In this document: positions 24,508-42,188 of the stretch, piece after piece
Position numbering within the stretch: the first letter of the stretch is position 1
Layout of the letters: each line of letters starts with the position of its first letter
From: Xanthobacter sp. NM-59
GTDB taxonomy: Bacteria; Pseudomonadota; Alphaproteobacteria; Rhizobiales; Xanthobacteraceae
Direction of reading: 5' to 3'
Assembly (NCBI RefSeq): GCF_021401125.1
Contig: NZ_JACBFQ010000010.1
Span: 1 to 64,000, forward strand
DNA length: 64,000 nt
Made by a program: the position numbers and the translations under genes
The notes under the pieces: generated by a model
What the model was told of the DNA's origin: nothing
Seen by the model: only the letters and a program-made list of their open reading frames with translations
Databases searched by the model: none

Positions 24508-25713
24508 ATGACCGAGCCCCTTTTCGCCCGCGACGAGCAGGATGTGGTGGAGGCGGTGGCCGCCGCCTGCGCGAGCGCCAGCCCCCTTGAGATCACCGGC
24601 ACCTCGTCCCTGCGCGCCCTGGGCCGCCCCTGCGCTGGCCGCGTGCTGGATGTTTCCGCCCTCTGCGGCGTCACGCTCTATGAGCCGGAAGAGCTGGTGC
24701 TCTCGGCCCGGTGCGGCACGCCGCGGCGGGATATTGACGACATGCTGGCAGAGAGTGGCCAGATGCTGGCCTTCGAGCCCCTGGATCTCGGCCCCGTTCT
24801 GGGCACTGCGCCGCGCGCCGGCACGGTGGGCGGGCTGTTCGCGGTGAACCTGTCCGGCCCCCGGCGCCTCAGCGCGGGCTCGGCGCGCGACCACGCTTTG
24901 GGCCTGCGCGCGGTGTCGGGGCGAGGCGAGTTGTTCAAGGCCGGCGGGCGGGTGGTGAAGAACGTCACCGGCTATGACCTGCCGCGCCTGTTCGCGGGCG
25001 CGTTCGGCACCCTGGGCGTCGCCACCGAGATCACCTTCAAGGTGCTGCCCCGGCCGGAAACGGAACAGACCCTGCTGCTCCACGCCCTTGCGCCCGCCCG
25101 CGCCGCCGAGGCGCTGAGCGCGGCCATGGGCTCTTCCTGCGAGGTCTCCGGCGCCGCTTTGATGCCGGCGGCGGTGGCGGCCCGGCTGCCCGGTCTTTCC
25201 GCCCGCGAGACGGTGGCCCTGCGGTTGGAAGGCGTCGCCCCCTCCGTGGCGGCGCGCCGCGAGATGCTGCGGCAGGCGCTCTCCCCCTTCGGCCCCACGG
25301 ACGTGCTGGAGGCCGACGTCTCCGCCCCCCTGTGGCGCGCGCTGCGCGATGTCGAGCCCTTCGCCGGACCAAGCGCGTGCGCCCTGTGGCGCATCTCCAC
25401 CGCCCCCATGGCGGGGCCCATTCTCGCCGCGCGGCTGTGCGCGGAGCTGGACGGGGAGGCGTTCTGCGACTGGGCCGGCGGGCTCATCTGGCTTTCCCTG
25501 CCGAGCGAGGCCGCGTGGGCGGAGCGCGTGCGCGCCGTGCTGGCGCCTGAGGGCGGGCACGCGACGCTGATCCGCGCCACCGCCGCCGAACGGTCAAAAA
25601 CCGCGGTATTCCAACCCCTCGACGGCGCCCTCGCCGCGCTAACCCACCGGGTGAAGGACAGCTTCGACCCCGCCGGCGTGCTCAATCGCGGCCGCATGCA
25701 TGAGGGATGGTGA
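24508..25713 (+). CDS. glcE: glycolate oxidase subunit GlcE
   Basis: Second FAD-binding subunit of glycolate dehydrogenase. The 401-residue protein has a short FAD-binding domain with APRAGTVGGLFAVNLSGPRR, RVVKNVTGYDLPRLFAGAFG and LGVATEITFKVLPRP, which match GlcE, and ends with VKDSFDPAGVLNRGRMHEGW, the usual C-terminal FAD-oxidase signature. It starts 14 bp after glcD. The start ATG at 24508 begins the conserved MTEPLFARDEQDVVEAV. Confidence 0.94.
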   Translation: MTEPLFARDEQDVVEAVAAACASASPLEITGTSSLRALGRPCAGRVLDVSALCGVTLYEPEELVLSARCGTPRRDIDDMLAESGQMLAFEPLDLGPVLGTAPRAGTVGGLFAVNLSGPRRLSAGSARDHALGLRAVSGRGELFKAGGRVVKNVTGYDLPRLFAGAFGTLGVATEITFKVLPRPETEQTLLLHALAPARAAEALSAAMGSSCEVSGAALMPAAVAARLPGLSARETVALRLEGVAPSVAARREMLRQALSPFGPTDVLEADVSAPLWRALRDVEPFAGPSACALWRISTAPMAGPILAARLCAELDGEAFCDWAGGLIWLSLPSEAAWAERVRAVLAPEGGHATLIRATAAERSKTAVFQPLDGALAALTHRVKDSFDPAGVLNRGRMHEGW

Positions 25714-25884
25714 CATGAACCTTCAGCCCACCATCCCCCGCGCGGCCCTTTCCGCCCAATGGCCCCGTGCCCCATACGGCCATGGCGCCTCCGCCGCGCG
25801 GTCAGTCCGCCGCTCTATCCCCGGTCGCGGGCTCCGCCGCCCCTCCACCGCTCTCCTTTGCCCCGTCGCGCCAGGACGCCGCTG

Positions 25885-27180
25885 ATGCAGACCCATTTTT
25901 CCCTGGCGCAGCTCGCAGATCCGGCCATTGCGGAGGCAGATTCCATTTTGCGGGCATGCGTGCATTGCGGCTTCTGCACCGCCACCTGCCCCACTTATGT
26001 GCTGCTGGGCGACGAGCGCGACAGCCCGCGCGGGCGCATCTATCTCATCAAGGACATGCTGGAGGCGGGGCGGCCGGCCACCGAGGACGAGGTGGGGCCC
26101 ATCGACCGTTGCCTGTCATGCCTGTCATGCACAAGCACCTGCCCCTCGGGCGTCGATTACATGCACCTCGTGGATCAGGCCCGGAGCTATATCGCAGCCA
26201 CCTATGAGCGCCCGGCGGCAGATCGGCTCATTCGCGCGCTCATCGCCCGCATCCTTCCCTATCCCCAGCGCTTCCGCCTGGCGCTGAAGGCGGCGGCCCT
26301 GGGCCGGCCCTTCGCCGGGCTGCTGGATCGCGGCGCCCTCAAGCCGCTGGCGGCCATGCTGCGCCTCGCCCCGCGCTCCACCGCGCGGACGGCGGTGAAG
26401 GATGGCATCCATCCCGCGCAGGGGCCGCGGCGGGCGCGGGTGGCGCTGCTGAAGGGCTGCGCCCAGGACGTGCTTCAGCCCTCCATCGACGCGGCCGCCA
26501 TCCGCCTGCTGAACCGGCTGGGGGTGGAGGTGGTGCGCCTGGCCGACCAGGGCTGCTGCGGCGCGCTGGTGCATCACATGGGCCGCACCGATGAGGCCCA
26601 CGGCTTCGCCCGGGCCAATGTGGAAGCCTTCAGCCAAGAAATGGAGCAAGGCGGGCTCGACGCCATTCTGGTCACCGCCTCCGGCTGCGGCACCACGTTG
26701 AAGGATTACGGCCACATGCTGCACCGGGACCCCGCCCATGCGGAGCAGGCGGAGCGCGTCGCCGCCAAGGTGCGCGATATCAGCGAGTTTCTCGCCACCC
26801 TCGAACTGCCGCCGCAGCCGCCGCGGGGCCTGAAGGTCGCCTACCATTCCGCCTGCTCGCTCCAGCACGGGCAGAAGGTGAAGGCGCCGCCCGTGGAGCT
26901 GCTGCGCCGGGCGGGCTTCGAGGTGGTGGAGCCCATCGACCCCCATCTGTGCTGCGGCTCCGCCGGCACCTACAACATGCTGCAGAGCGACTTGGCCGAG
27001 GCCCTCAAGGCCCGCAAAGTGGCAACCCTGGAAGCCCGCGCGCCGGACCTGATCGCCGCCGGGAACATCGGCTGCCTCACCCAGATCGCCAGCGGCACCG
27101 AGCTGCCCGTGGTGCACACGGTGGAGCTGGTGGACTGGGCCCTGGGCGGCCCGCGCCCCGTCGCTCTCGGCCCGGGCTGA
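25885..27180 (+). CDS. glcF: glycolate oxidase iron-sulfur subunit GlcF
   Basis: Electron-transfer subunit passing electrons from GlcDE to the quinone pool. The 431 residues contain two [4Fe-4S] motifs, CVHCGFCTATCPTY and CLSCLSCTSTCPSGVDY, and two CCG domains (DQGCCGALVHHMGR and LCCGSAGTYNMLQ). The ATG at 25885, preceded by CAGGA, starts the conserved MQTHFSLAQLADP. The frame is open upstream but that part is Arg/Pro-rich and unlike the family. A 171-bp spacer separates it from glcE, longer than the other gaps in the operon. Confidence 0.95.
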   Translation: MQTHFSLAQLADPAIAEADSILRACVHCGFCTATCPTYVLLGDERDSPRGRIYLIKDMLEAGRPATEDEVGPIDRCLSCLSCTSTCPSGVDYMHLVDQARSYIAATYERPAADRLIRALIARILPYPQRFRLALKAAALGRPFAGLLDRGALKPLAAMLRLAPRSTARTAVKDGIHPAQGPRRARVALLKGCAQDVLQPSIDAAAIRLLNRLGVEVVRLADQGCCGALVHHMGRTDEAHGFARANVEAFSQEMEQGGLDAILVTASGCGTTLKDYGHMLHRDPAHAEQAERVAAKVRDISEFLATLELPPQPPRGLKVAYHSACSLQHGQKVKAPPVELLRRAGFEVVEPIDPHLCCGSAGTYNMLQSDLAEALKARKVATLEARAPDLIAAGNIGCLTQIASGTELPVVHTVELVDWALGGPRPVALGPG

Positions 27181-27189
27181 AAGCCGGCA

Positions 27190-27226
27190 GGCAACAGTTC
27201 GGCATCAATTCCCCGCAATTGTTGCC
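27190..27226. promoter_or_regulatory. inverted repeat after glcF
   Basis: GGCAACAGTT (27190-27199) and AATTGTTGCC (27217-27226) match as an inverted repeat at nine of ten positions, with a 17-base spacer. It begins nine bases past the glcF stop. It may be a terminator stem for the glc operon or an operator for thiE; no T-run follows. Confidence 0.45.
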
Positions 27227-27335
27227 ATTACAGCGAAAGTGCATTTCCACCCCCGGGGTTGGACAGGGCCGCCAGGGGGCGTTACCACAAAAGGAACGCG
27301 GGCGGTTTCCGTCCCCAGCAACCGGGCTCATCGTG

Positions 27336-27971
27336 ATGGCCAGCGCCTTCGATCTTTCGCTCTATCTCGTCACCGACCCGCGCCTCACCGCGGCGCGCGG
27401 GCTTGAGGCGACGGTGGCGGCGGCGGTGAAAGGCGGCGTCACCCTGGTGCAGCTGCGCGATCCCGACGCCCATGGCCGGGCCCTGGTGGAACAGGCGCGC
27501 GCCCTGAAGGCGCTACTCGCGCCTTTGGGTCTGCCGCTCATCATCAATGACCGGGTGGACGTGGCTGTGGCGGCGGACGCGGACGGCGTGCATCTGGGCC
27601 AGGACGACATGTCTCCCGCCGATGCGCGCGGCCTTCTGGGGCCGGACCGCATTCTCGGCCTCTCCGTGGGCAATCCGGCGGAATATGCCGGTTCCGACCT
27701 TTCAGGCGTGGACTATCTCGGCGTCGGCCCGGTGAAGGCCACCGGCACCAAGGCGGATGCGGGCGCGGCCATCGGCCCGGCGGGCATCGCCGCCATACGG
27801 GCGCTGACGGGCCTGCCTCTGGTGGGCATTGGCGGCGTCGACGCCGCCATCGCGCCGGAGGTGATCCGCGCCGGGGCCGACGGGATCGCGGTGGTGTCCG
27901 CCATCTGCGCGGCCGCCGACCCCGAGGCCGCCGCCAAAGCCTTGCGCGCCGCCGTATCGGCCGCGCGCTGA
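27336..27971 (+). CDS. thiE: thiamine phosphate synthase ThiE
   Basis: Joins HMP-pyrophosphate and THZ-phosphate to give thiamine phosphate. The 211-residue TIM barrel shows [85 protein letters not shown] and [10 protein letters not shown], all classical. The ATG at 27336 follows a GTG by one codon; either could be used. No other thiamine gene and no TPP riboswitch is visible nearby, so it is a detached thi gene between glcF and aceB. Confidence 0.94.
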
Positions 27972-28041
27972 CCCTCACGCGGCGTCGCCGCGAACCGACA
28001 CTTTCCACCGAACTTCAAGTGGCTGAAGGAGGCCGCACGCC

Positions 28042-29658
<1,617 letters not shown>

Positions 29659-29704: not shown

Positions 29705-29723
29705 GTGATGTTTTAAACATCAC
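29705..29723. promoter_or_regulatory. perfect palindrome upstream of the HTH gene (candidate operator)
   Basis: GTGATGTTT, one central T and AAACATCAC form a 9+1+9 palindrome in an A/T-rich island that contrasts with the GC-rich surroundings. It lies about 80 bp upstream of the small HTH gene that heads the hyf-like operon, so it could be the binding site of that regulator or of another. Confidence 0.55.
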
Positions 29724-29801: not shown

Positions 29802-30083
29802 GTGATCACTGCCGCACAGCTCCGTGCCGCCCGCGCTCTGCTTGGCCTCGACCAGAAGGGGCTGGCCGCCCTGTCCACCCTCTCGGTGCCCACCATCCAG
29901 CGGATGGAGGCCAGCGAGGGGGTCATTCGCGGCAATGTGGACTCGCTCATGAAGCTGGTGGCGGCCCTGGATAGCGCCGGCATCGAGCTCATCGGAGACA
30001 ATATGGCGAGCGAAGCGGGCGGGCGCGGCGTGCGGCTGAAGGAGCCCACCCCGCGCACACCCCTGGCAGGGACGGAGGGCTGA
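29802..30083 (+). CDS. small XRE-family HTH protein heading the hyf-like operon
   Basis: The 93-residue product is a helix-turn-helix of the Cro/C1 type: ITAAQLRAARALLGLDQKGL then AALSTLSVPTIQRMEASEGV covers the five helices, followed by VDSLMKLVAALDSAGIELIG. The last third is a short polar tail without a second domain. It starts with GTG, and its stop is three bases before the start of the hyfB-like gene, so the two are almost surely co-transcribed. Such a small XRE protein is likely a repressor or activator of its own operon; two inverted repeats lie just upstream. No ligand domain is present. Confidence 0.85.
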   Translation: MITAAQLRAARALLGLDQKGLAALSTLSVPTIQRMEASEGVIRGNVDSLMKLVAALDSAGIELIGDNMASEAGGRGVRLKEPTPRTPLAGTEG

Positions 30084-30086
30084 GAC

Positions 30087-32141
30087 GTGGCCGACGGCGC
30101 AACTGCCGCCGCGGCGGCGCTGGGCTCCACGCCCACCGGGCCCCTGAGCGGCCTTCTCTTCCTGATTGTCGCCTTCGCGGCGATCGCGCTGGCGGCCCCG
30201 CGCCTCGCCCGGCGGCCCGGCGGCAGCGCTCTCGTCTATGGCGCAAGCTTCATCGCCGCGACGCTGGGCCTGCTGAGCGCCCTCGCCGGCCTTGTCTGTG
30301 CACCCGAAACGCTGGTGCTGCCCTTGGGGCTGCCCTGGATCGGCGCCCATTTCCGGCTCGATGCGCTCTCCGCCTTATTCGCCCTGGTGGTGAATCTCGG
30401 CGGCGCAGCGGCGAGCCTCTATGCCATCGGCTATGGCCGGCACGAGCATGCGCCGGAACGGGTGCTGCCCTTCTTCCCCGCCTTTCTCGGCGCCATGAAC
30501 CTGGTGCTGGTCGCGGCTGATGCCTACAGCTTCCTGTTCGGCTGGGAGCTGATGTCGCTGGCCTCCTGGGCGCTGGTGATCGCCCATGACAAGTCCGCGG
30601 AAAACCTCAAGGCCGGCTTCGTCTATATCGTCATGGCCACCTTCGGCACGCTGATGCTGATGCTGGCCTTCGCTCTGCTCGCGGGCCCCTCCGGCGCCTA
30701 TGCCTTCGCGGACATGGAGCGCGCGCCCCATGGCGCCCTGGTGACCGCCTTGGTGCTGGGGCTGGCGCTGGTGGGCGCGGGCTCCAAGGCGGGCCTGGTG
30801 CCGCTGCATGTGTGGCTGCCGCTGGCCCATCCGGCGGCGCCCAGCCACGTGTCCGCCCTCATGAGCGGGGTGATGACGAAGGTGGCCATTTACGGCTTCA
30901 TCCGCATCGTGTTCGAGCTAGCTGGTCCGCCCGATTGGTGGTGGGGCATTCCGGTGCTGGCGGCGGGCGGCATCACCGCCACCCTGGGCGTGCTCCAGGC
31001 CATGCTGCAGGCGGACATGAAGCGCGTGCTGGCCTTCTCCACCATCGAGAATATCGGCATCATCTTCGTCGGGCTGGGGCTCGCCCTGGCCTTCAAGGGC
31101 AATGGGCTGGAGGCGGCCGGCGCGCTCGCGCTCACCGCCGGCCTGTTCCACGTGCTCAACCACGCGCTGTTCAAGAACCTCCTGTTCTTCGGCGCCGGCG
31201 CGGTGCTGAACGCCACCGGCGAGCGAAGCCTCGAACAGCTCGGCGGGCTCATCCATCGCATGCCCACCACGGCGGCGGTGATGCTGGTGGGCGCCGCCGC
31301 CATCTCGGCCCTGCCGCCGCTCAATGGCTTCGCCTCCGAATGGCTCACCTTCCAGGCCATCCTTCTGAGCCCGGAGCTGGCGCCCTGGGGCCTCAAGCTG
31401 CTGGTGCCGGCGGTGGGCGCGCTGCTGGCCCTCGCCGCGGCATTGGCGGCGGCCTGCTTCGTCCGGCTCTACGGCATCGCTTTCCTGGGCCGCCCGCGCA
31501 CCGGGGCCGCCGCCGAGGCGCGGGAGGTGGACCGCTGGTCGCGCGGGACCATGATCGGCCTCGCCACGCTCTGCGTGCTGGCAGGCATCCTGCCCGGGCC
31601 GGTGATCGACGCGCTGCAGCAGGTGGTGTCACCGCTGATGGGCGCGCGCATGCCGGTGCAGGGCGACGTGGCGTGGCTCTCCATCATCCCGGTGGGCGAG
31701 AGCCGCTCCAGCTATAACGGCCTCCTGGTGTTCGTCTTCATCCTCATCTCGGCGGGGCTGGCGGCGGTCCTGATCCACCGCTTCGCTTCCCGCGCCCTGC
31801 GGCGGGCGCCGGCCTGGGATTGCGGCTTCCCGCTCAACGATCCCCGCACCCAATACTCGGCCTCGAGCTTCGCCCAGCCCATCCGGAGGGTGTTTGCCAG
31901 CGGCCTGTTCCGCGCCCGCGAGGACGTGACCATGCCGCCGCCGGGCGACCTTTCCCCCGCCCGCATCCGCCTGAGTGGGGACGACCCGGCCTGGCGGCTC
32001 ATCTACGCGCCGCTCACGACGATGGTGGACGCGCTGTCCGCGCGCGCCAATGTGCTGCCGCACCTCACCATCCGCCAATATCTGGGCATCGTCTTCTCGG
32101 CGCTCATCCTCCTGCTGCTGGTGCTGGCGATATGGCCCTGA
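30087..32141 (+). CDS. hyfB: hydrogenase-4 subunit B-like antiporter subunit (HyfB/NuoL-type)
   Basis: Large polytopic membrane protein (684 residues, about 14-16 helices) of the complex I/Mrp antiporter family, thought to translocate protons or sodium. Key polar residues are visible: the glutamate of LFGWELMSLASW, the lysine of GSKAGLVPLHVWLP, and the second lysine in SGVMTKVAIYGF. The C-terminal part resembles HyfB/HycC, with WDCGFPLNDPRTQYSASSFA. It starts with GTG directly after the XRE gene and overlaps the hyfC-like gene by ten bases. As the large subunit downstream lacks nickel ligands, the name hyfB describes ancestry and not hydrogenase function. Confidence 0.9.
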   Translation: MADGATAAAAALGSTPTGPLSGLLFLIVAFAAIALAAPRLARRPGGSALVYGASFIAATLGLLSALAGLVCAPETLVLPLGLPWIGAHFRLDALSALFALVVNLGGAAASLYAIGYGRHEHAPERVLPFFPAFLGAMNLVLVAADAYSFLFGWELMSLASWALVIAHDKSAENLKAGFVYIVMATFGTLMLMLAFALLAGPSGAYAFADMERAPHGALVTALVLGLALVGAGSKAGLVPLHVWLPLAHPAAPSHVSALMSGVMTKVAIYGFIRIVFELAGPPDWWWGIPVLAAGGITATLGVLQAMLQADMKRVLAFSTIENIGIIFVGLGLALAFKGNGLEAAGALALTAGLFHVLNHALFKNLLFFGAGAVLNATGERSLEQLGGLIHRMPTTAAVMLVGAAAISALPPLNGFASEWLTFQAILLSPELAPWGLKLLVPAVGALLALAAALAAACFVRLYGIAFLGRPRTGAAAEAREVDRWSRGTMIGLATLCVLAGILPGPVIDALQQVVSPLMGARMPVQGDVAWLSIIPVGESRSSYNGLLVFVFILISAGLAAVLIHRFASRALRRAPAWDCGFPLNDPRTQYSASSFAQPIRRVFASGLFRAREDVTMPPPGDLSPARIRLSGDDPAWRLIYAPLTTMVDALSARANVLPHLTIRQYLGIVFSALILLLLVLAIWP

Positions 32142-33085
32142 TTGGCGATCTCCTCATTCAGGGCACGCAGATGACGGTGGTGCTCGCCGTGGCTCCGCTG
32201 GTGACGGGCGTGGTGCGCAAGCTGAAGGCGCGGCTCTACCGCAAACGCGGCGCGAGCGTGCTCCAGCCCTATCGCGATCTCGCCCGCCTGTTCCGCAAGG
32301 AAGCGGTGGTGGCGGAAGGCGCCTCCTGGCTGTTCCGCGCCGCGCCCTACCTCATCTTCGCGGCCACCTGGGTGGCGGCGGCGCTGGTGCCCACCTTCGC
32401 CACCGGGCTGCTGTTCTCCTGGTCGGCGGACCTCATCGCCATCACCGCCCTTCTGGGCAGCGCCCGCTTCTTCCTGGCGCTGGCGGGCATGGATGTGGGC
32501 ACGCCCTTCGGCGGCCTCGGCTCCAGCCGCGAGATGATGATCTCATCCCTCGCCGAGCCGGCCATGATCATGCTGGTTTTCTCCCTGGCCCTGGTGGCGG
32601 GCTCCACCCAGCTGTCCACGGTGGCGGGGGTGATGCTGCAGGGCGTCGGCCTGCGCGTGTCGCTGGCCCTGGCGCTGATCGGCCTCATGATCGTGGCGGT
32701 GGCGGAGAATGCCCGCATCCCGGTGGACAATCCCTCCACCCACCTTGAGCTCACCATGGTGCACGAGGCCATGGTGCTGGAATATTCCGGTCGCCACCTC
32801 GCCCTCATCGAGCTGTCGGCGCAGCTGAAGCTTACGCTCTACATCTCGCTCATCGCCTGTGTGTTCGTGCCCTGGGGGCTGGCGCCCGCGGGGGCGGGGC
32901 TGACCCATATGCCGCTCGGCCTGCTCGCATATTTCGGCAAGCTGGCGGTGGGGGCCACGCTGCTCGCGCTGTTCGAGGTGTCGCTGGCGAAGATGCGGGT
33001 GTTCCGGGTGCCGGACTTCCTCGGCGCGGCGCTCATGCTGGGGCTGCTCGGCACCCTGCTCTTGTTTGTGTCTCGGGGGCTCTGA
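32132..33085 (+). CDS. hyfC: hydrogenase-4 subunit C-like protein (HyfC/HycD/NuoH-type)
   Basis: Membrane subunit of 317 residues with about eight helices, homologous to NuoH, linking the hydrophilic redox arm to the ion-pumping subunits. Family markers are LQPYRDLARLFRKEAVVAEG near the N-terminus and the conserved loop ENARIPVDNPSTHLELTMVH then EAMVLEYSGRHLALIEL, typical of the HycD/HyfC branch. The ATG at 32132 lies inside the end of the hyfB-like gene, a coupled start. The charged loop residues needed at the interface with the large subunit appear intact. Confidence 0.9.
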   Translation: MALIGDLLIQGTQMTVVLAVAPLVTGVVRKLKARLYRKRGASVLQPYRDLARLFRKEAVVAEGASWLFRAAPYLIFAATWVAAALVPTFATGLLFSWSADLIAITALLGSARFFLALAGMDVGTPFGGLGSSREMMISSLAEPAMIMLVFSLALVAGSTQLSTVAGVMLQGVGLRVSLALALIGLMIVAVAENARIPVDNPSTHLELTMVHEAMVLEYSGRHLALIELSAQLKLTLYISLIACVFVPWGLAPAGAGLTHMPLGLLAYFGKLAVGATLLALFEVSLAKMRVFRVPDFLGAALMLGLLGTLLLFVSRGL

Positions 33086-33088
33086 TCC

Positions 33089-33766
33089 ATGCCGCAGCCC
33101 ATGTCCCCCCATTTCGTGTTCGACATCGCCCACCTCCTGGCGGGCGCCATGGTGCTCATAAGCCTGATGATGCTGTACCAGGACCGCCTGCCTGCGCTCA
33201 TCAAGGTGTTCGCGCTGCAGGCGGTGGCGCTGGCGGCCTCGGTGGCGTGGCAGGCTTATGCCCATGATGCGCCACACCTTTACGTCACCGCCGGCATCGC
33301 CATCCTGTTCAAAGGGCTGGTCATTCCGGTGGCCCTGCACCGCATGGTCGCGCGGCTCGGCATTCACCGGCAGGTGGAAACGGCGCTTGCCACCGGACCC
33401 ACCATGCTGGCCGGCATCGGCCTCGTCGGCCTCTCTCTGGTGGTGATGCTGCCGGTGACAGCCACCTCCGATCCGCTGGCGCGGGAGGACCTCGCCTTCG
33501 CCCTTTCGGTGGTGCTGCTGGGCTTCCTGATGATGGTGACGCGGCGCAATGCGGTGAGCCAGATCATCGGCTTCATGTCCATGGAAAACGGCCTCATCCT
33601 CGCCGCCGCGGGCGCCAAGGGCATGCCGCTGGTGGTGGAAATCTCGGTGGCGTTCTCGGTGCTCATCGCCTTCATCATCCTCGGCGTGTTCCTGTTCCGC
33701 ATCCGTGAGCGGTTCGACACGGTGGACGTGGACGCCCTCGACCGGTTCCGGGGAGGGCGGGCATGA
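33089..33766 (+). CDS. hyfE: hydrogenase-4 component E-like protein (HyfE)
   Basis: The 225-residue membrane protein has about seven helices. The C-terminal half resembles NuoK/MrpC (NAVSQIIGFMSMENGLILAA, with the conserved glutamate, and EISVAFSVLIAFIILGVFLF), joined to an N-terminal helical part special to HyfE. It starts three bases after the hyfC-like stop and overlaps the hyfF-like gene by four bases (ATGA). HyfE is absent from the Hyc formate hydrogenlyase and marks this operon as Hyf/Ehr-like. Confidence 0.88.
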   Translation: MPQPMSPHFVFDIAHLLAGAMVLISLMMLYQDRLPALIKVFALQAVALAASVAWQAYAHDAPHLYVTAGIAILFKGLVIPVALHRMVARLGIHRQVETALATGPTMLAGIGLVGLSLVVMLPVTATSDPLAREDLAFALSVVLLGFLMMVTRRNAVSQIIGFMSMENGLILAAAGAKGMPLVVEISVAFSVLIAFIILGVFLFRIRERFDTVDVDALDRFRGGRA

Positions 33767-35211
33767 GCCTTCCCAGCATCCTTCTGCTGCTCGCCACCCC
33801 GGCGCTCGCCGCCGCGCTGCTGGCGCTGTGGCCGTCCTGGCGCTCGGGGGCGTGGGTCAACGTCCTCGCCTGCACCCTCGCCTTCGCCGGGGCGCTGGGG
33901 CTGGTGGTGCACCGGCCGGACAGCGGGCCCTATATCCTGGTGGACGACCTCAACATCGTGTTCATCGTCCTGAACACGTTCGTGGCCCTCACAACCGCCG
34001 TGTTCAGCGCCACCTACATCGCCCACGAGGTGGAGACCGGGCGCATGACGCCCGCCAACCTGCGCGTCTACCACGCCATGTACCAGGTGCTGCTGTTCGG
34101 CATGAACATGGCGCTGGTGTCCAACAATCTCGGCGTCATGTGGGTGTCCATCGAGGGCGCGACCCTCTCCACCGTGCTCATGGTGGGGCTCTATCGCACG
34201 CCGGAAGCCATTGAGGCGGCGTGGAAATACTTCATGCTCGGCTCGGTGGGCATCGCCATGGCGCTGTTTGGCACCATCCTCGTCTACATGGCCGCCCAGC
34301 CGGTGGTGGGCGAGGGCCAGGACGGCATGGTGTGGAGCGTATTGGTCACCCGCGTTCAGGCCTTCGATCCGGCCTTGCTCAACCTCGCCTTCGTGTTCCT
34401 GCTGCTCGGCTACGGCACCAAGGTGGGCCTGTTTCCCCTCAATGCCTGGCTGCCGGACGCCCATGCGGAAGGGCCAACCCCCATTTCCGCCGTGCTGTCC
34501 GGCCTGCTGCTGAACGTGGCGCTGTATGCGGTGCTGCGCTTCAAGCTGCTGCTGGCGCTCAATCCCGGCGCGCTGGCGCCGGGGCCCCTGTTGATGGGCA
34601 TGGGGCTCGCCTCGCTGCTGCTGGCGGGCGTGATGCTCTACCGGCGGCGGGACATCAAGCGCCTGTTCGCCTACTCCTCCATCGAGCATATGGGGCTCAT
34701 CGCCTTCGCCTTTGGCATTGGCGGGCCGCTGGCCAATTTCGCCGGGCTGCTGCACATGGTGATGCATTCGCTCACCAAATCCGCCATCTTCTTCGCAGTG
34801 GGCCATGTGGCCCAGGTGAAGGGCACGCAGAAATTGTCGGAGATCCGTGGCCTCACCACCTCCCATCCCGCGCTCGGCTGGGCCCTGGTCATCGGCGTCC
34901 TCGCCATTGCGGGGCTGCCGCCGGGCGGGGTGTTCATGAGCGAGTTCCTGCTGGTCACCTCCACCTTCGCCAAGCCGTTCCCGCTGATGCTGCTGGCCTT
35001 GCCGCTGGTGGCCGGCCTCCTCATCGCCTTCGGGGCCCTGGTGCTGAAGCTCAGCGGCATCGCATTCGGCGAACCGACTCCCGGAACCGCCCCGGTGAAG
35101 GCCTCCTACGGGCCTCTGGTGGTCCACCTTGCCCTGGTGCTGGCCGCCGGCCTCTATCTGCCGGCGCCGCTGGTGGCCTGGTTCCAGCACGTGGCGAAGC
35201 TTCTGGGGTAG
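33763..35211 (+). CDS. hyfF: hydrogenase-4 subunit F-like antiporter subunit (HyfF/NuoN-type)
   Basis: Second antiporter-like subunit in the operon, 482 residues with about 13-14 helices. Conserved charged sites are seen in WVSIEGATLSTVLMVGLY (glutamate), GYGTKVGLFPLNAWLPDAHA (lysine) and RRRDIKRLFAYSSIEHMGLI; the second channel lysine of many NuoL/M/N proteins is a leucine here (SGLLLNVALYAV). With the HyfB-like protein this gives at least two potential ion channels. No HyfD-like third antiporter gene is present. Confidence 0.9.
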   Translation: MSLPSILLLLATPALAAALLALWPSWRSGAWVNVLACTLAFAGALGLVVHRPDSGPYILVDDLNIVFIVLNTFVALTTAVFSATYIAHEVETGRMTPANLRVYHAMYQVLLFGMNMALVSNNLGVMWVSIEGATLSTVLMVGLYRTPEAIEAAWKYFMLGSVGIAMALFGTILVYMAAQPVVGEGQDGMVWSVLVTRVQAFDPALLNLAFVFLLLGYGTKVGLFPLNAWLPDAHAEGPTPISAVLSGLLLNVALYAVLRFKLLLALNPGALAPGPLLMGMGLASLLLAGVMLYRRRDIKRLFAYSSIEHMGLIAFAFGIGGPLANFAGLLHMVMHSLTKSAIFFAVGHVAQVKGTQKLSEIRGLTTSHPALGWALVIGVLAIAGLPPGGVFMSEFLLVTSTFAKPFPLMLLALPLVAGLLIAFGALVLKLSGIAFGEPTPGTAPVKASYGPLVVHLALVLAAGLYLPAPLVAWFQHVAKLLG

Positions 35212-35219
35212 CGCACGGC

Positions 35220-36725
35220 ATGCAGTCTCTCACCTCCCTCCTCGCCGCCGGAACGCGCAGCTTCACCTGCCGGCCGTGGCCACGCGCGGTCCTCGACCCC
35301 GGCGCGTGGTCGGCGCTCGCGGCGCATCTGGCCCAGGGGCGCTTCACCCTGGTGTCTCTCTGGGGCGACGTGGATGCGGTGCACATGGCGCTGCTGGACG
35401 AGGCCTCGGTCGAGGCCGGCATCGCCACCTGCCTGTGCCCCGAGGGGCGCTTTCCCTCCGTCGGGCAGGTGCACCCGCCGGCGCAGCGGCTGGAACGCGC
35501 GGTCCGCGACCTCTACGGCCATGTGCCCGAGGCGGCTCCCGACACCCGGCCCTGGCTGGACCACGGCCGCTGGGGCATCGACGCGCCGTTGGGCGCGGCC
35601 CAGGCCGCGGGCGAGGGTGAGCCCTATGCCTTCCTGGCCGCCGAGGGCGCCGCCCTGCACCAGATTCCGGTGGGGCCGGTGCATGCCGGCATCATCGAGC
35701 CCGGCCACTTCCGCTTCACCTGCCATGGCGAGACAGTGGTGCGCCTGGAAGCGCGGCTCGGCTATGTGCACAAGGGCATTGAAGGGCTGATGGTGGGCGC
35801 TTCAGTGGAGGAGGCGGCGCGCCTTGCCGGCCGCAGCTCCGGCGACAGCACCGTGGCGTTCGCGCTCGCCTTTGCCCGCGCGGTGGAAGCCGCGCGCGGC
35901 ATCGGCGTGCCGCCGCGCGCCATCTGGCTGCGCGCCCTGGCGGCGGAGCTGGAGCGGCTGGCCAACCATTTCGGCGACGTCGGCGCCATCTGCAACGACG
36001 CCGCTTTTGCCCTCATGCTGGCCCATTGCGGCGTGCTGCGGGAACGGACCCTGCGCGCGGCGCAGACCGCCTTCGGCAACCGGCTGATGATGGATGTGGT
36101 GATCCCCGGTGGACTGTCGAACGACATGACGCCCGACGGCATCGCCGCCGTGCGCGCGCTGGTGAAGACCGCCCGCGCCACCTTCCCCGAGCTGATCCGC
36201 CTTTATGACGACACCACCTCCATCCAGGACCGCACCGTCGGCACCGGCATCGTGCGGGAGGCATTGGCGCGCCGGTTCGGCGCCGGCGGCTTCGTCGGGC
36301 GCGCCAGCGGGCGGAGCTTCGATGCCCGCCGCTTCCTGCCCTATCCGCCCTACAACCAGATGCCCTTCACCATTCCCAGCCGCCAGGACGGGGACGTGAA
36401 CGCGCGCATCTGGATCCGCATTCAGGAGATCGAGGAGAGCCTCTCCCTCGTCACCCGGCTGCTGGACACCCTGCCCGCCGGCCCCACGCAGACTTCCGTG
36501 GAGCCCGGCCCCGGCGAGGGCGTGGCCATGGTGGAGGGGTTCCGGGGCGATATCTTCGCCTATGTGCGGCTCGACCGCGAGGGGCGGATGGCGCGCGCCC
36601 ACCTGCGGGACCCCTCATGGTTCCAGTGGCCACTGCTCGAGGCCGCCATCGAGGGCAACATCGTCGCCGACTTCCCCTTGTGCAACAAATCGTTCAACTG
36701 TTCCTATGCGGGCCATGACCTCTAG
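35220..36725 (+). CDS. hyfG: hydrogenase-4 large-subunit-like protein lacking nickel ligands (HyfG/NuoCD-type)
   Basis: The 501-residue protein fuses a NuoC-like part (FPSVGQVHPPAQRLERAVRD, then DTRPWLDHGRWG) to a NuoD/hydrogenase-large-subunit part (VGPVHAGIIEPGHFRFTCHG, YVHKGIEGL). In [NiFe] hydrogenases the first ligand motif is RxCGxC; here the same place reads RSSGDS (205-210), with serines at both cysteine positions. The second motif, DPCxxC at the C-terminus, reads NCSYAG (493-498) before the final HDL, again without the pair. All four nickel ligands are therefore missing, as in NuoD and in Ehr-type complexes. It probably docks electrons to an unknown acceptor near the small-subunit cluster. 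A 214-bp gap separates it from the small-subunit gene. Confidence 0.9.
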   Translation: MQSLTSLLAAGTRSFTCRPWPRAVLDPGAWSALAAHLAQGRFTLVSLWGDVDAVHMALLDEASVEAGIATCLCPEGRFPSVGQVHPPAQRLERAVRDLYGHVPEAAPDTRPWLDHGRWGIDAPLGAAQAAGEGEPYAFLAAEGAALHQIPVGPVHAGIIEPGHFRFTCHGETVVRLEARLGYVHKGIEGLMVGASVEEAARLAGRSSGDSTVAFALAFARAVEAARGIGVPPRAIWLRALAAELERLANHFGDVGAICNDAAFALMLAHCGVLRERTLRAAQTAFGNRLMMDVVIPGGLSNDMTPDGIAAVRALVKTARATFPELIRLYDDTTSIQDRTVGTGIVREALARRFGAGGFVGRASGRSFDARRFLPYPPYNQMPFTIPSRQDGDVNARIWIRIQEIEESLSLVTRLLDTLPAGPTQTSVEPGPGEGVAMVEGFRGDIFAYVRLDREGRMARAHLRDPSWFQWPLLEAAIEGNIVADFPLCNKSFNCSYAGHDL

Positions 36726-36864
36726 CGCCGGAGCGGAAGAGCCAACCGGCCGGCGGGCCGCCCCTGATGTCGCATCGTCGGTTCCGCCTATGAAATGCCA
36801 TGCGCCTGTTTGGAACGGCTTCAAACTACGGGGTGAAGCGGGCAATTTTGGGTATACGGGCTGA

Positions 36865-36884
36865 ACATGTGCAATTGTATATGT
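36865..36884. promoter_or_regulatory. A/T-rich imperfect palindrome in the hyfG-hyfI gap
   Basis: The 20-bp ACATGTGCAATTGTATATGT, centred on CAATTG, matches its own complement at 16 of 20 positions. The surrounding gap (36726-36939) is unusually A/T-rich for this window and could contain an internal promoter for the small-subunit gene. Confidence 0.4.
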
Positions 36885-36939
36885 GTAGGGCGACCGGCGC
36901 GAACCTGAGGTGATCGCCGGGCGCTCAAGGGAATGAGTG

Positions 36940-37464
36940 ATGCGCCAAATCCTGCTGAAGAGCCTGTTGACAGGCCCCCTCACTGAAGATGTGCCCGACG
37001 CCACCGAAGTGGCGGCGCTCGGCTCAGCCGTGGGGGCGGCGGCGCAGGCCCGGCTTGGCCGCAGCCTCGCCATCCGGGAGGTGGATGCCGGCTCCTGCAA
37101 TGCCTGCGAGCTGGAGATCCATGCGCTGTCCAACGCCTTCTATGACCTGGAGCGGTTTGGCCTGAAGTTCGTCGCCTCCCCCCGCCATGCCGACGTTCTG
37201 CTCGTCACCGGCCCGGTGAGCCGCAACATGGCCGAGGCGCTCCAGCGCACCCATGAGGCCACGCCGGCGCCCAAATGGGTGGTGGCGGCGGGCGATTGCG
37301 CCATCAATGGCGGCGTCTTCGCGGGAAGCTACGCGGTGATGGGGGGTGTCGAGGCGGTCCTGCCGGTGGATCTGCGCATTCCCGGCTGCCCGCCCACGCC
37401 CACCGCGCTGCTCCAAGGCCTGCTTGCCCTGCTGAATGCCAATGAGGGGCGCGCCGCGCGCTGA
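36940..37464 (+). CDS. hyfI: hydrogenase-4 small-subunit-like [4Fe-4S] protein (HyfI/NuoB-type)
   Basis: The 174-residue NuoB-type subunit carries the proximal (N2-like) [4Fe-4S] cluster. All four ligand cysteines can be seen: GSCNACELEIHAL (C53, C56), AAGDCAINGG (C120) and IPGCPPTPTALLQG (C150). So the redox centre is kept although the large subunit has lost the nickel site. The N-terminal 40 residues lack the tandem ferredoxin clusters, and no HyfA or HyfH ferredoxin gene is found in the operon. The ATG at 36940 follows AAGGGA; a GTG one codon earlier is possible. Confidence 0.9.
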   Translation: MRQILLKSLLTGPLTEDVPDATEVAALGSAVGAAAQARLGRSLAIREVDAGSCNACELEIHALSNAFYDLERFGLKFVASPRHADVLLVTGPVSRNMAEALQRTHEATPAPKWVVAAGDCAINGGVFAGSYAVMGGVEAVLPVDLRIPGCPPTPTALLQGLLALLNANEGRAAR

Positions 37465-37886: not shown

Positions 37887-38846
37887 TCACAAGTCCAACA
37901 CCAGCAGGTCGCCTTTGCCACGCGACACGCAGGCCAGCATCCAGCCTTCGTCGCGCTCGGCGGCGGAGAGGCGCTTGTCGCGGTGGTCCACCTCGCCTTC
38001 CAGCACCTTCACCTTGCAGGTGCCGCAGGCACCCTGCTCGCAGGAGGTCCGGATCTTCACCCCCCTTTCCTCGAGCGCGCCGGAGACGGACTTGTCGCCG
38101 GGGATCTCATAGGTCTTGCCGGTGGACGCGATCTTCACCGAGAAGACCTTGTCCAGCAGCGGCGCGGGCGCCTTGCCGCCGAACCGCTCCATGTGGATGC
38201 GATTGACGCCGAAGCCCTTCTGCTGCGCGGTCTTGGCGATGGGGTCCATCCACCAGTCCACGCCGCACAGGAACAGCTCGGTGTCATCGGGTCGATCGGC
38301 GAGGATGTTGGCCGGATTGAAGGGCGGCTGCGCGCCTTCCAGATAGAAGGTGGTGTTCTCCGCGAAGGCGGACGCCTCGATGGTGCCCTGGAACGAGCCC
38401 GGAGAACCGCCGGCAAACACATAGTGCAGCTCGAAGGGAACCTCTTTCTTCTTCAGGTGATCGGCGATGCTGAGAATGGGCGTGATGCCGATGCCGCGCG
38501 CCATCAGCACGGCGCGGGCCGTGCCCTTGGGCACCGCGAAGCGGTTACGCGGTGCGCTCACCTGCAGGGTGTCGCCCACATTCACGTTCTCATACATGGC
38601 CAGCGAGCCGCCACGGCTGTTGGCATCCTTCCACACGCCGATGAGATAGTGGTTGCGCTCGTCGGCGCTGTTGAACAGCGAATACTGGCGCACCAACCCG
38701 CCGGGGATCGTCACATCAATGTGCGAGCCGGGCGTGAAGCCGGGCAGCTCCGCGCCTGCGGGATCCACCAGCTCCAGCGAGACCATATTGTTAGCCTCGA
38801 CCGTCTTCTTCGCTACGACGACCGGGTGCAGGGCATCGTCTGACAT
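37887..38846 (-). CDS. flavin / [2Fe-2S] oxidoreductase, dioxygenase-reductase type
   Basis: Predicted NAD(P)H-dependent electron donor of class IA aromatic oxygenases (vanillate demethylase VanB / phthalate dioxygenase reductase type). The 319-residue protein has a flavin domain (RQYSLFN for flavin binding), a nucleotide domain (MARGIGITPILSIADHL) and a C-terminal plant-type ferredoxin with CEQGACGTCKVKVLEGE and LACVSR as cluster ligands. GGAG precedes the ATG at 38846. No oxygenase component lies in the window, so its partner must be elsewhere or it serves another reduction. The domain assignment is firm, the pathway is not. Confidence 0.87.
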   Translation of the reverse strand: MSDDALHPVVVAKKTVEANNMVSLELVDPAGAELPGFTPGSHIDVTIPGGLVRQYSLFNSADERNHYLIGVWKDANSRGGSLAMYENVNVGDTLQVSAPRNRFAVPKGTARAVLMARGIGITPILSIADHLKKKEVPFELHYVFAGGSPGSFQGTIEASAFAENTTFYLEGAQPPFNPANILADRPDDTELFLCGVDWWMDPIAKTAQQKGFGVNRIHMERFGGKAPAPLLDKVFSVKIASTGKTYEIPGDKSVSGALEERGVKIRTSCEQGACGTCKVKVLEGEVDHRDKRLSAAERDEGWMLACVSRGKGDLLVLDL

Positions 38847-38995
38847 TCGAAACTCTCCATGGACCTTAAGCCGATGGGGAGGGAGCAAGGACAAGGCCAG
38901 TTTTCAGGCGAAAACCCGCCATTGCGCACCGGAGGTCAAAAAATAGGCAAGTGCCCGGCAGCCGGCATGCACAGCACGGCCCCGCGACGGAGAGC

Positions 38996-39023
38996 CGCCC
39001 CGGCCTGAACGCAGGCCGGGGCG
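38996..39023 (-). terminator. terminator-like hairpin downstream of adhP
   Basis: Arms CGCCCCGGCCT (38996-39006) and AGGCCGGGGCG (39013-39023) form a perfect 11-base stem with a six-base loop, nine bases beyond the adhP stop. No T-run follows on the minus strand. Confidence 0.62.
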
Positions 39024-39032
39024 CGCCCGCTG

Positions 39033-40061
39033 TCAGCCCTCGAAGTCGAGCACGATGCGGCCCTGGATGTCGCCCTTATGCATGCGATCGAAGATGGTGT
39101 TGATGTTGTCCAGCCTGTCGGTGTGGATAGTGGCCTTCACCTTGCCCTCGCCCGCGAAGTTGAGCGCCTCCTGCAGGTCGAGCCGGGTGCCGACGATGGA
39201 GCCGCGCACGGTGATGCCGTTCAGCACTGTATCGAAGATGGAAAGCGGGAAGTCGCCCGGCGGCAGGCCGTTGAGGGAGACGGTGCCGCCGCGCCCCACC
39301 ATGCCCAGCGCCTGCTCGAACGCCTTGGGCGAGACGGCGGTGACCAGCACGCCCTGGGCCCCGCCCACCTCCTTCTTCACGAAGGCCACCGGATCGGTGG
39401 TGCGGGCGTTGACCGTCAGCGCGGCCCCCAGCGAGCGGGCAAGGTCGAGCTTGGTGTCGTCGATGTCCACGGCGATTACGTTGAGGCCCATGGCCTTGGC
39501 ATATTGCACGGCGAGGTGCCCGAGGCCGCCGATGCCGGAAATCACCACCCAATCATCGGGCTTGGTGTCCGTCACCTTCAGGCCCTTATAGACGGTGACG
39601 CCCGCGCACAGGATGGGGGCGATCTCCGTGAAGGAAATGTTGGCCGGCAGGTGGCCCACGAAGTTCGGGTCCGCCACTACATATTCGGCGAAGCCGCCAT
39701 TCACGGAATAGCCGGTGTTCTGCTGGTCCTCGCACAGGGTTTCCCAGCCACCCAGGCAATGCTTGCAATGGCCGCAGGCGGTGTAGAGCCACGGCACGCC
39801 CACCCGGTCGCCTTCCTTCACATGCTTCACACCCGCGCCGACGGCGGCCACATAGCCCACGCCCTCGTGGCCGGGAATGAAAGGCGGCTTCGGCTTCACC
39901 GGCCAGTCGCCCTCGGCGGCGTGAAGATCAGTATGGCACACGCCGCTGGCCGCGATCTTCACCAGGATCTGCCCCGCGCCCGGCGTCGGCACCGGCACCT
40001 CCTCAATGGACAGGGGCTTTCCGAACGCGTGAACGACAGCGGCCTTCATGGTCTTCGTCAT
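39033..40061 (-). CDS. adhP: zinc-dependent alcohol dehydrogenase AdhP
   Basis: Interconverts primary alcohols such as ethanol and their aldehydes with NAD+. The 342 residues show the catalytic zinc site (C42-H43, H65-E66 in [17 protein letters not shown]), the structural zinc cysteines C96, C99, C102 and C110 in [15 protein letters not shown], and the Rossmann motif [18 protein letters not shown] ribosome site (GGGAAGAGC) precedes the ATG at 40061. It lies near the aldehyde dehydrogenase at 40668, on the same strand but with a 600-bp gap and a hairpin between; together they could oxidise ethanol to acetate. Confidence 0.94.
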
Positions 40062-40638
40062 GCTCTTCCCTTTCGTTCCCATCCGACGGGCCCGAAGGCC
40101 AGGCCCCCGGCACCCCCGGCTTTGACAGGGAACGCGCGCGACGATGCACGGCCGGCCCCGCCGCTCGCGCCCCAGGCCCCCGCAGCAGCGGCCCGGACAT
40201 GAACCGGCGCCCTGGCGCGGGAAACACGGCAATTGGTCATTCCGCTGGCAGCGCCCGGTGCTCAAGCGTTTCGGGCGCGGGCTGGCATGTGGGGGATGGC
40301 TGGCGCGCAGCCGAGTGAGGGGGAGACCGAACCGCACCACTCACGGCAAGGAGCGCCACGGCTGCGAGATCGCTGTCGATGTCCGGATCAACGACAGGCA
40401 CGAATCGACGGCCGCCGGAAGCCAGGGGGAAACTGGCCTCCGGCCTCGATCATGGCCGTTCGTTCCTCCTTGAGCGGTTGTCCGCGGCCGGTCCGCGGGT
40501 CGTTTCAGACGCCGCCTTGGGACAGGATGGAGTCCACTGCCCCAAGAACGGCGCCGGTGATCCTTTGTTCCCGGCGGCGGGACGGATGAAAGTGAGGATG
40601 CCGGGCATCCCCGCCCCGCCGCCGGCCACGTCTGGCGC
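40062..40638. other. intergenic region upstream of adhP, no gene supported
   Basis: About 580 bp between adhP and the aldehyde dehydrogenase terminator. I searched it by eye for a sigma-54 promoter toward adhP and found none with correct GG/GC spacing. Short frames here are Arg/Pro-rich and unconvincing. Confidence 0.5.
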
Positions 40639-40660
40639 CGCGCCTTCACCAGAAGGCGCG
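40639..40660 (-). terminator. terminator hairpin of the aldehyde dehydrogenase gene
   Basis: Arms CGCGCCTTC (40639-40647) and GAAGGCGCG (40652-40660) form a perfect nine-base stem with an ACCA loop, seven bases past the stop codon. Confidence 0.65.
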
Positions 40661-40667
40661 GATCCGC

Positions 40668-42188
40668 TCAGAAGAAGCCGAGCTTCTTCGGGCTGTAGCT
40701 CACCAGCAGGTTCTTGGTCTGCTGGTAATGGTCCAGCATCATCTTGTGGGTCTCGCGCCCGATGCCCGACTGCTTGTATCCGCCGAACGCCGCATGGGCG
40801 GGATAAGCGTGGTAGCAGTTGGTCCACACGCGGCCCGCCTCGATGGCGCGGCCGAAGCGATAGGCACGAGAGCCATCGCGCGTCCACACGCCGGCGCCCA
40901 GGCCGAACAGAGTGTCATTGGCGATGGAGAGCGCCTCCGCCTCATCCTTGAAGGTGGTCACCGACACCACGGGGCCGAAGATCTCTTCCTGGAAGATGCG
41001 CATGGAATTGTTGCCCAGGAACACGGTGGGCTTCACATAGAAGCCTTCCGAAAGGTCCCCTTCCAGGGCGTTGCGCTCACCGCCGATCAGCACCTTGGCG
41101 CCTTCCGCCTTGCCGATCTCGATATAGCTCAGGATCTTGTGCATCTGCTCGCTGGAGGCCTGGGCGCCGATCATGGTGGAGGGATCGAGCGGCGAGCCCT
41201 GCTTGATGTCGGCGACACGCTTCAGCGCCTTTTCCATGAAGCGGTCATAGACGCTTTCCTGGATCAGAGCGCGGCTGGGGCAGGTGCACACTTCGCCCTG
41301 GTTGAGGGCGAACATCACGAAGCCTTCGATCGCCTTGTCGAAGAAGTCGTCGTCTTCCGCCGCCACATCCGAGAAGAAGATGTTCGGCGACTTGCCGCCC
41401 AGCTCCAGGGTGACCGGGATGAGATTCTGGCTGGCATAGCCCATGATGAGGCGGCCGGTGCCCGTCTCACCCGTGAAGGCGATCTTGGCGATGCGCTTGG
41501 AGGAGGCGAGCGGCTTGCCGGCCTCCAGGCCGAAGCCGTTCACGACGTTGAGAACGCCGGCGGGCAGGATGTCGGCGATCAGCTCGGCCAGCACCAGCAT
41601 GGAGGCCGGGGTCTGCTCGGCCGGCTTCAGCACCACGCAATTGCCGGCGGCGATGGCGGGGGCCAGCTTCCACGCGCCCATCAGGATCGGGAAGTTCCAG
41701 GGAATGATCTGGCCCACCACGCCGAGCGGCTCGTGGAAGTGATAGGCGATGGTGTCGTGGTCGATCTCGGAGAGCGCGCCTTCCTGGGAGCGCACGCAGG
41801 CCGCGAAATAGCGGAAGTGGTCGATGGCCAGCGGAATGTCCGCCGCCGTGGTCTCACGGATGGGCTTGCCGTTGTCCCAGGTCTCGGCCAGCGCGAGCAG
41901 GTCGAGATTCGCCTCCATCCGGTCGGCGATGCGGTTCAGGATCAGCGCGCGCTCGGCGGCCGGGGTGCGGCCCCAGGCGTCCTTGGCGGCGTGGGCGGCG
42001 TCGAGAGCCTTCTCAATGTCGTGCTCATCGGAGCGCGCCACTTCGCAGATCACTTTACCGTTGATGGGCGAGATGTTCTCGAAATAGCGCCCGTTCACCG
42101 GCTCCACGAAGGTGCCGCCGATGAAGTTCCCATACCGGGCCTTGAAGGGCGAGGCCTTGTCCTGATTGAGGAATTCTGGCTTGTTCAT
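40668..42188 (-). CDS. NAD(P)-dependent aldehyde dehydrogenase (AcoD/ExaC type)
   Basis: Oxidises acetaldehyde and related aldehydes to the acid. The 506-residue product shows the family set: [20 protein letters not shown], catalytic glutamate E262 in LELGGKSPN, catalytic cysteine C301 in [12 protein letters not shown], and [15 protein letters not shown]. The closing [20 protein letters not shown], then [16 protein letters not shown], is typical of the AcoD/AldB/ExaC group. GGAGGAAACC precedes the ATG at 42188. A sigma-54 promoter stands upstream and the divergent neighbour is an AcoR-type activator, so induction by ethanol or acetoin-derived acetaldehyde is likely. acoD, aldB or exaC are all possible symbols, so none is assigned. 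Confidence 0.93.

Follow-up and report, generated by a model that had tools for sequence, protein, structure and literature searches.

The present work concerns a 64,000-nt stretch of DNA from Xanthobacter sp. NM-59 (contig NZ_JACBFQ010000010.1, positions 1 to 64,000, forward strand; hereafter the window), which carries an operon for a hydrogenase-related (Ehr) complex. Seven genes lie on the plus strand at 29802-37464 and encode, in this order, an XRE-family regulator, HyfB, HyfC, HyfE, HyfF, the large subunit EhrL and the small subunit EhrS. By its sequence, the operon is a member of the described Ehr family. It has a large subunit of the group 4/NuoD type in which the [NiFe] motifs are absent, a small subunit of the proximal [4Fe-4S] type, and NuoH-like and Mrp-antiporter-like membrane subunits. 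Among named relatives, the EhrL of Xanthobacter agilis is the closest (84% identity).

The operon begins with the XRE-family helix-turn-helix gene (29802-30083, 93 aa, GTG start), for which Pfam HTH_3 and HTH_31 both scored under the gathering cut-off. A perfect palindrome, TGATGTTTTAAACATCA (29706-29722, plus strand), lies 79 nt 5' of its start codon and is the predicted XRE operator. Four membrane subunits follow: the HyfB/NuoL-like antiporter subunit (30087-32141, 684 aa; Proton_antipo_M, 1.3e-53), the HyfC/NuoH-like subunit (32132-33085; NADHdh, 8.2e-37), which starts at the ATG at 32132, overlaps hyfB and aligned to HycD, HyfC and NuoH, the HyfE/NuoK-like subunit (33089-33766, 225 aa) and the HyfF-like antiporter subunit (33763-35211, 482 aa; Proton_antipo_M, 1.8e-50). 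The match of HyfE to Oxidored_q2 (7.4e-6) was at the cut-off and that to NF008556 (2.7e-25) under it. An earlier note on this stretch had expected that homology would give the operon the name hydrogenase 4, and so it did: NF005086 for HyfB (858 bits) and NF005043 for HyfF (839 bits) were both above the cut-off. EhrL (35220-36725, 501 aa) matched Complex1_49kDa (6e-43) and, with its fused 30-kDa domain, Complex1_30kDa (1.1e-4). EhrS (36937-37464, GTG start, with an ATG at 36940) matched Oxidored_q6 (1.8e-33).

Nickel site of the large subunit

EhrL was aligned with HycE, HyfG, NuoCD and 177 open reading frames (ORFs) of related loci. After the removal of duplicates, columns were counted in 120 clade-A sequences (window included), 16 clade-B sequences and 10 Hyc/Hyf sequences, and 15 others were tallied separately. 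The Hyc/Hyf sequences all had cysteine (10/10) at each of the four nickel-ligand positions of HycE/HyfG. In EhrL, RxCGxC is replaced by RSSGDS (the L1 site; residues 205-210, 35832-35849, plus strand) and DPCxxC by NCSYAG (the L2 site; residues 493-498, 36696-36713, plus strand), three residues from the natural C-terminus. The earlier note had read both motifs exactly so and had proposed this alignment, in which both were changed across the 136 EhrL sequences. Position 207 was Ser in 119 of the 120 clade-A and 14 of the 16 clade-B sequences (133/136), position 210 in 117 and 11 (128/136), and position 495 in 118 and 13 (131/136), while position 498 was Gly throughout (120/120 and 16/16). The sole nickel-ligand cysteine left among the 136 was at position 207, in one sequence per clade. 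The note had also pointed to intact CxxC pairs elsewhere in the large subunit as something that would speak against it; EhrL has eight cysteines and no CxxC pair.

D209 was present in 136/136 EhrL sequences, at a column that holds Ile in 10/10 Hyc/Hyf sequences, and K490 and N493, also in 136/136 each, are newly invariant residues outside the ligand positions. D500 is not specific to Ehr, as the Hyc/Hyf sequences have Asp there too. With the ligands lost and polar residues newly fixed, the nickel site of EhrL looks rebuilt rather than merely decayed. The C-terminus of EhrL (...GHDL) aligned with ...TDR of the E. coli hydrogenase subunit, which we take to be the cut site in the processing of that large subunit; the EhrL chain stops where HycE does after maturation. 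The best solved relative of EhrL was HycE of formate hydrogenlyase (FHL; 7z0s, E = 3.3e-53).

Small subunit, antiporter subunits and selection

The four [4Fe-4S] cysteines of EhrS that the earlier note had listed, C53, C56, C120 and C150, were confirmed in the numbering from the ATG; counted from the GTG, they are C54, C57, C121 and C151. Of 98 loci, all but one yielded EhrS, and with the window included each cluster cysteine was present in 97 or 98 of the 98 sequences. The pattern, CxxC...C...C, is like that of HycG/HyfI and unlike NuoB with its adjacent CC. The view that both antiporter subunits keep most key charges was also borne out: of the residues taken as key in antiporter subunits, HyfB has the whole Glu/Lys/Lys/Glu set, and in HyfF an Asn replaces the Lys of TM8, likewise in E. 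coli HyfF.

Compared with X. agilis, dN/dS was 0.21 for the XRE gene, 0.27 for HyfB, 0.12 for HyfC, 0.11 for HyfE, 0.19 for HyfF and 0.16 for EhrL. The range of 0.11-0.27 covers these six genes, EhrS being left out. These values, and the fixed or nearly fixed substitutions in both clades, speak against a chance change at the nickel site. Over the six genes, the operon is under purifying selection and is not a relic.

Gene content and distribution

The Ehr operon has homologues of HyfB, C, E, F, G and I in the same order as E. coli hydrogenase 4/FHL-2 (hyf) and FHL-1 (hyc), but it has no HyfA, HyfD, HyfH or maturation protease, and all four nickel ligands are replaced. Queries with E. coli HyfA, HycB, HycI, NuoE, NuoF, NuoG and NuoI found no match in the window (E≤1e-3). 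The HyfH/HycF queries matched only a presumably LutB-like Fe-S protein (17294-18751) and an Fe-S gene (25759-27180), and the HyfD query matched hyfB and hyfF of the operon and nothing else. We also surveyed 80 named loci with up to 10 kb on either side where the contig allowed it; in nine of them, the contig begins within or after hyfB. HyfA, HycB, HycH, HycI, NuoI and NuoE-G had no match in these 80 loci, and HyfH/HycF matched in L020 only, about 10 kb from EhrL. The statement of the earlier note that HyfA, HyfH and HyfD genes are missing holds beside the operon, as judged by these E. coli queries. Its statement on formate dehydrogenase also holds beside the operon, but the same genome has such a gene elsewhere (G000:C32).

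The six genes were complete in 16 of 18 further Ehr loci (L183-L200), as expected from the minimal six-subunit make-up that the earlier note had proposed. The exceptions were L198, whose contig ends before hyfB, and L199, without a detected small subunit. HyfA, HycB, HyfH, HycF, NuoI, NuoE-G and HycI had no match in L183-L200. Clade B (42-49% identity in the large subunit) has the six genes, and no XRE match was found there. Named Alpha-, Beta- and Gammaproteobacteria carry the six-gene set, and Ehr complexes are described from several phyla; the finding is more ordinary than the earlier note had implied.

For neighbouring genes, the ORFs of the 80 loci were compared all against all, clusters in at least six loci were listed, and antisense or out-of-frame ORFs of the operon were set aside by position. 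Nothing but the operon and the XRE gene (67 loci) was prominent; next came an ABC-type ATPase in 15 loci, on both strands, and a spermidine-synthase-like protein in 12 loci.

Among 198 genomes of the family, 79 were counted as Ehr-bearing (a large-subunit match with at least 55% identity); the count includes the contig-end fragments in G052, G033 and G172 and excludes the partial matches in G099 and G035. A HypD match was absent in 45 of the 79 Ehr genomes, and in 22 of the 52 that are at least 98% complete. Since 45 of 79 carriers have no HypD, nickel maturation is not needed. HypD was nevertheless commoner with Ehr (34/79) than without (14/119), and the genome studied here has it; this enrichment is likely due to kinship. 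Two other co-occurrences were set aside. All 198 genomes matched formate dehydrogenase at E≤0.001 (163 above the cut-off), which makes the comparison uninformative, and a link with autotrophy was unsupported, RuBisCO (E<1e-100) being present in 39/79 Ehr and 46/119 non-Ehr genomes (P = 0.15).

XRE regulator and predicted operator

The claim that the operon is headed by its own XRE gene extends to its relatives. The region is visible in 71 named loci, and in 67 of these the gene lies directly 5' of hyfB; it is absent in L008, L076 and L079 and about 2.3 kb away in L047. In the family genomes, the linkage was counted in 40 of 102 places and 35 of 79 Ehr genomes, numbers that understate it because the cut-off was strict and contigs were incomplete. 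The Ehr-linked XRE proteins cluster together (4 changes compared with 29.8 in shuffles, on a short, weakly resolved tree).

The upstream regions of Ehr-linked and non-Ehr XRE genes share the predicted operator motif TGATGT-N5-ACATCA. We scored the best match to it, of 12, in the 200 bp upstream. Of 70 Ehr-XRE genes, among them those of the window and of three family genomes, 33 reached at least 10/12, as did 15 of 16 non-Ehr XRE genes; single-base shuffles reached 10 in about 0.9% and 11 in 0.05% of cases. In the own genome, eight places match the operator with at most one mismatch, and the sole exact one among the matches listed is 29706-29722. As the only exact copy among these matches lies here, the regulon reveals no electron donor. 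A promoter-like pair, TTGAAA-17-TAGCGT (8/12 matches), begins 10 nt past the palindrome. The promoter scan of this region gave none at its threshold and reported the palindrome as terminator-like. A second palindrome 5' of the XRE gene, GTTGAAT-N8-ATTCAAC, found by pattern in the window only, was dropped.

Without Ehr, this type of XRE gene heads a SulP gene in 12 of the 16 sampled places (one checked with Pfam). These loci (L224-L228, L230, L231 and L233-L237) mostly have the same operator palindrome. The XRE type also heads DUF1275 genes (L034 by Pfam; L054, L018 and L011 by sequence likeness) and DUF983 genes (L229 by Pfam; L241 by sequence likeness). We take it, from these arrangements, as a putative autoregulatory cassette of membrane-protein operons. 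Bradyrhizobium-type Ehr loci (L239, L242, L020, L041, L049, L061, L066 and L070) have a second XRE gene 3' of EhrS, convergent to the operon, with a poor upstream operator match (8-10/12). In L223 (7233-10956, genome G061), an XRE gene of the window type adjoins a RuBisCO gene and a gene that we take to be cbbX-like, and in L240 (G083) a similar XRE gene and a RuBisCO gene are about 7 kb apart. The XRE paralogs of the own genome were uninformative as a guide to function: for three of the five, the surrounding region was inspected by eye, and all three showed genes like those of phages or integrative elements.

Sister nickel-free complexes and phylogeny

Two further nickel-free operon types, the L206-type and the L208-type, were found in the same family (nine loci, L206-L214). 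They resemble Ehr in a large subunit without nickel ligands, a small subunit, membrane subunits and a place on the Ehr side of the tree. They differ in that large-subunit identity is only 32-36%, that a riboswitch stands before them, and that the L206-type has a NuoI/HycF-like gene. At the first ligand motif their large subunits have RxSG followed by V, I or T, and at the second SFGLTIAGCDR or SFGLSNAECDR. In six of the seven sister loci with a visible upstream region, a fluoride riboswitch (RF01734) lies on the operon strand about 100-210 nt 5' of the first recognised gene: L207:11150-11211, L209:11794-11854, L210:11688-11748, L211:12049-12111, L212:11424-11486 and L213:2911-2972. The upstream region of L208 had none, and those of L206 and L214 are cut short. 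No fluoride riboswitch was found in the window, in eight clade-B loci or in six clade-A loci. Pfam also showed genes for enolase and CrcB in L211 and a DUF190 gene in L209.

By homology, the sister operons would be labelled formate hydrogenlyase. According to the excerpts of PMC11139923, formate hydrogen lyase is among the commonest fluoride-riboswitch genes and was read as formate metabolism; PMC8004769, in its excerpts, also names formate hydrogen lyase as a fluoride-riboswitch gene. Because the large subunits of the sisters are without nickel ligands, the reading as formate metabolism cannot hold for those versions, and the riboswitch on six of seven operons is a hint of ion or pH homeostasis. 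The nickel-free nature of these fluoride-controlled complexes is not mentioned in the excerpts of the riboswitch literature cited here.

A tree of 54 large-subunit proteins separated the Ehr clades and three other nickel-free groups from HycE/HyfG, other [NiFe] subunits and NuoD (99/99). The earlier note had suggested such a tree, and it sets Ehr apart from HycE/HyfG and NuoD with references from E. coli, Pseudomonadota relatives and NuoD (itself nickel-free) and no Geobacter or Nitrospira Ehr. This topology suggests a single loss of the nickel site. The single loss is not proven, given the long-branch warning and the fact that clade B did not form one group. Two divergent pairs of large and small subunits, L201 and L202 (26-28% large-subunit identity; L1 region SRINAVDSIA or SRINALDSVA), also fell on the Ehr side of the tree, and neither has a membrane-subunit match within 18 kb.

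Surroundings of the operon

Between EhrL and EhrS lies a spacer of 214 nt (36726-36939), compared with a median of 12 nt in 81 loci (window included); L008 has 874 nt. The spacer is single-copy in the own genome and has no Rfam match. Neighbouring genes of the window (17294-18751, 24490-29658 and 37887-42881) include malate synthase, a Fer2/FAD reductase and a zinc alcohol dehydrogenase (Pfam), an aldehyde-dehydrogenase-like gene, and genes that are presumably LutB-like (17294-18751) and glycolate-oxidase-like. Among the 80 loci, glcF, malate synthase and the reductase stand beside Ehr elsewhere only in X. agilis; the aldehyde-dehydrogenase-like gene does so in L007 and L058 as well.

Discussion

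The Ehr complexes of Geobacter (GSU0739-45), Nitrospira, Sulfobacillus and Margulisbacteria share with our operon large and small subunits of group 4 type, HyfB/E-type or antiporter-type membrane subunits and the lack of [NiFe] motifs, as far as the excerpts of PMC7894505, PMC10284858, PMC12342949, PMC4378227 and PMC6349859 describe them. That the type is known in principle, as the earlier note stated, is borne out by these descriptions from several phyla. The Xanthobacter clade differs in its six-gene set and linked XRE gene, a distinction that rests on descriptions and not on sequence comparison with Geobacter or Nitrospira. In the excerpts at hand, Geobacter Ehr was more abundant with formate and its authors suggested a link with formate dehydrogenase (PMC7894505), a formate dehydrogenase-Ehr complex was proposed (PMC6349859), HydDB leaves Ehr out because it does not metabolise H2 (PMC5037454), and the function of Ehr or of nickel-free group 4 complexes is called unknown or unproven (PMC10284858, PMC12342949, PMC4378227, PMC12542776). 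A limited search of the Ehr literature cited, in excerpts, gave no mention of the rebuilt-pocket signature or of the link with XRE and its operator.

Complex I is a further relative. Homologues of NuoB, NuoCD, NuoH, NuoK and NuoL/M are present and EhrL D260 aligned with Nqo4 D139, but the operon has no NADH module and no NuoI, the quinone-head ligands are absent, and the small subunit has CxxC instead of CC. NuoE-G and NuoI were unmatched in the window, the 80 named loci and L183-L200. MBS/Mbx of Pyrococcus (6u8y), which we take to be a non-hydrogenase complex of group 4-like type, has a related large subunit (E = 1e-25) and was compared by this match only. The Ehr papers cited above refer in turn to Coppi et al. 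and to Marreiros et al. 2013.

We propose, at about an even chance, that the Ehr complex, which is related to group 4 hydrogenases and complex I but has no nickel, works as a redox-driven ion pump. Ferredoxin or a flavoprotein, as a soluble carrier of low potential, would dock directly on EhrS, since the operon lacks a polyferredoxin of the NuoI/HyfH type. From the single [4Fe-4S] cluster of EhrS, electrons would pass into the rebuilt EhrL pocket, where a small acceptor would be reduced; alternatively, the flow could be reversed. A conformational change would then reach the two antiporter subunits by way of the NuoH-like subunit, moving H+ or Na+. XRE would bind TGATGT-N5-ACATCA and control mainly the Ehr operon. 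The ion pump with one cluster that the earlier note had in mind is the best-supported reading, with redox activity and pumping both predicted from the subunits.

Several observations weigh against this proposal. The search for conserved neighbours, which the earlier note had also suggested, returned the XRE gene and no conserved electron-transfer gene or redox partner within 10 kb of the operon in the 80 named loci. The columns of T. thermophilus Nqo4 H38 and Y87, which we take to be the quinone-head ligands of complex I, are I159 (135/136) and G208 in EhrL; a complex-I-like quinone site is unsupported with these residues replaced, and binding of the EhrL acceptor in the manner of complex I is unlikely. 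D209 and K490 may do no more than plug the former pocket. In clade A, C258, C488 and C494 hardly vary and may bind another metal, although C488 and C494 are not near-invariant in clade B and so are not universal ligands. The AlphaFold2 model of EhrL alone had a mean pLDDT of 79, with residues 112-184 and 478-501 below 50; the segments of the pocket fall in these regions of low confidence. Finally, 16 of the 70 Ehr-XRE upstream regions scored at most 8/12, no higher than shuffles, so the operator has diverged or is absent in them.

It is possible, though we doubt it, that the complex is instead a machine of ion or pH homeostasis under stress, in which the membrane arm does the work (on H+/Na+, or indirectly on an anion) and the peripheral arm mainly controls or powers it, while net redox catalysis is perhaps small. 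The fluoride riboswitches of the sister operons and the SulP genes headed by the same XRE and operator point this way. The near-universal cluster cysteines of EhrS would be superfluous in a non-redox machine, however, and the riboswitch is absent from the window and from the clade-A and clade-B loci searched; besides SulP genes, DUF1275 and DUF983 genes too are headed by this type of XRE. Reverse operation, in which proton-motive force is spent on low-potential ferredoxin, for example for nitrogen fixation, appears improbable. The own genome has nifH, and nifH was found in 31/79 Ehr and 16/119 non-Ehr genomes (Fisher P = 6e-5, uncorrected for kinship). This co-occurrence is only a weak hint of function: 48 of the 79 carriers have no nifH, HypD is enriched alike, which makes kinship or a shared lifestyle the likely cause, and the hosts include Sphingopyxis and Competibacter.

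We would be greatly surprised if the operon encoded a true hydrogenase or formate hydrogenlyase whose nickel site has merely diverged. The annotation models for HyfB and HyfF, the solved structure closest to EhrL and the presence of HypD in the own genome and its commonness among carriers speak for one, yet all four ligand positions are changed with no CxxC elsewhere, more than half of the carriers have no HypD, and no HyfA, HyfH or HycI accompanies the operon. Neither the four cysteine ligands of group 4 hydrogenases nor a general presence of Hyp maturation genes was found. A decaying relic of hydrogenase 4 is just as improbable. The lost catalytic ligands and the long gap between EhrL and EhrS would fit decay, whereas the reading frames are intact and under purifying selection, and D209, K490 and N493 are invariant in two clades.

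Ehr complexes have repeatedly been reported as being of unknown function (excerpts of PMC12342949, PMC10284858 and PMC4378227). The present locus is compact, with six genes in its operon, and belongs to a culturable genus; the few invariant residues of the pocket are targets for mutation, and the predicted operator offers a handle for finding the inducing condition. The labels hydrogenase 4 and formate hydrogenlyase are wrong on such nickel-free genes. Nickel-free Hyf-like complexes might even be, as a large group, machines of ion homeostasis induced by stress rather than relics of hydrogenases, an idea that we hold only tentatively: one branch, switched on by fluoride through riboswitches, would have been misread as formate hydrogenlyase, and the other, to which the present operon belongs, would be switched by the XRE cassette that it shares with SulP genes and would have a rebuilt, cysteine-poor redox pocket. 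The sister group, with fluoride as its probable inducer, makes the function of a nickel-free complex directly testable.

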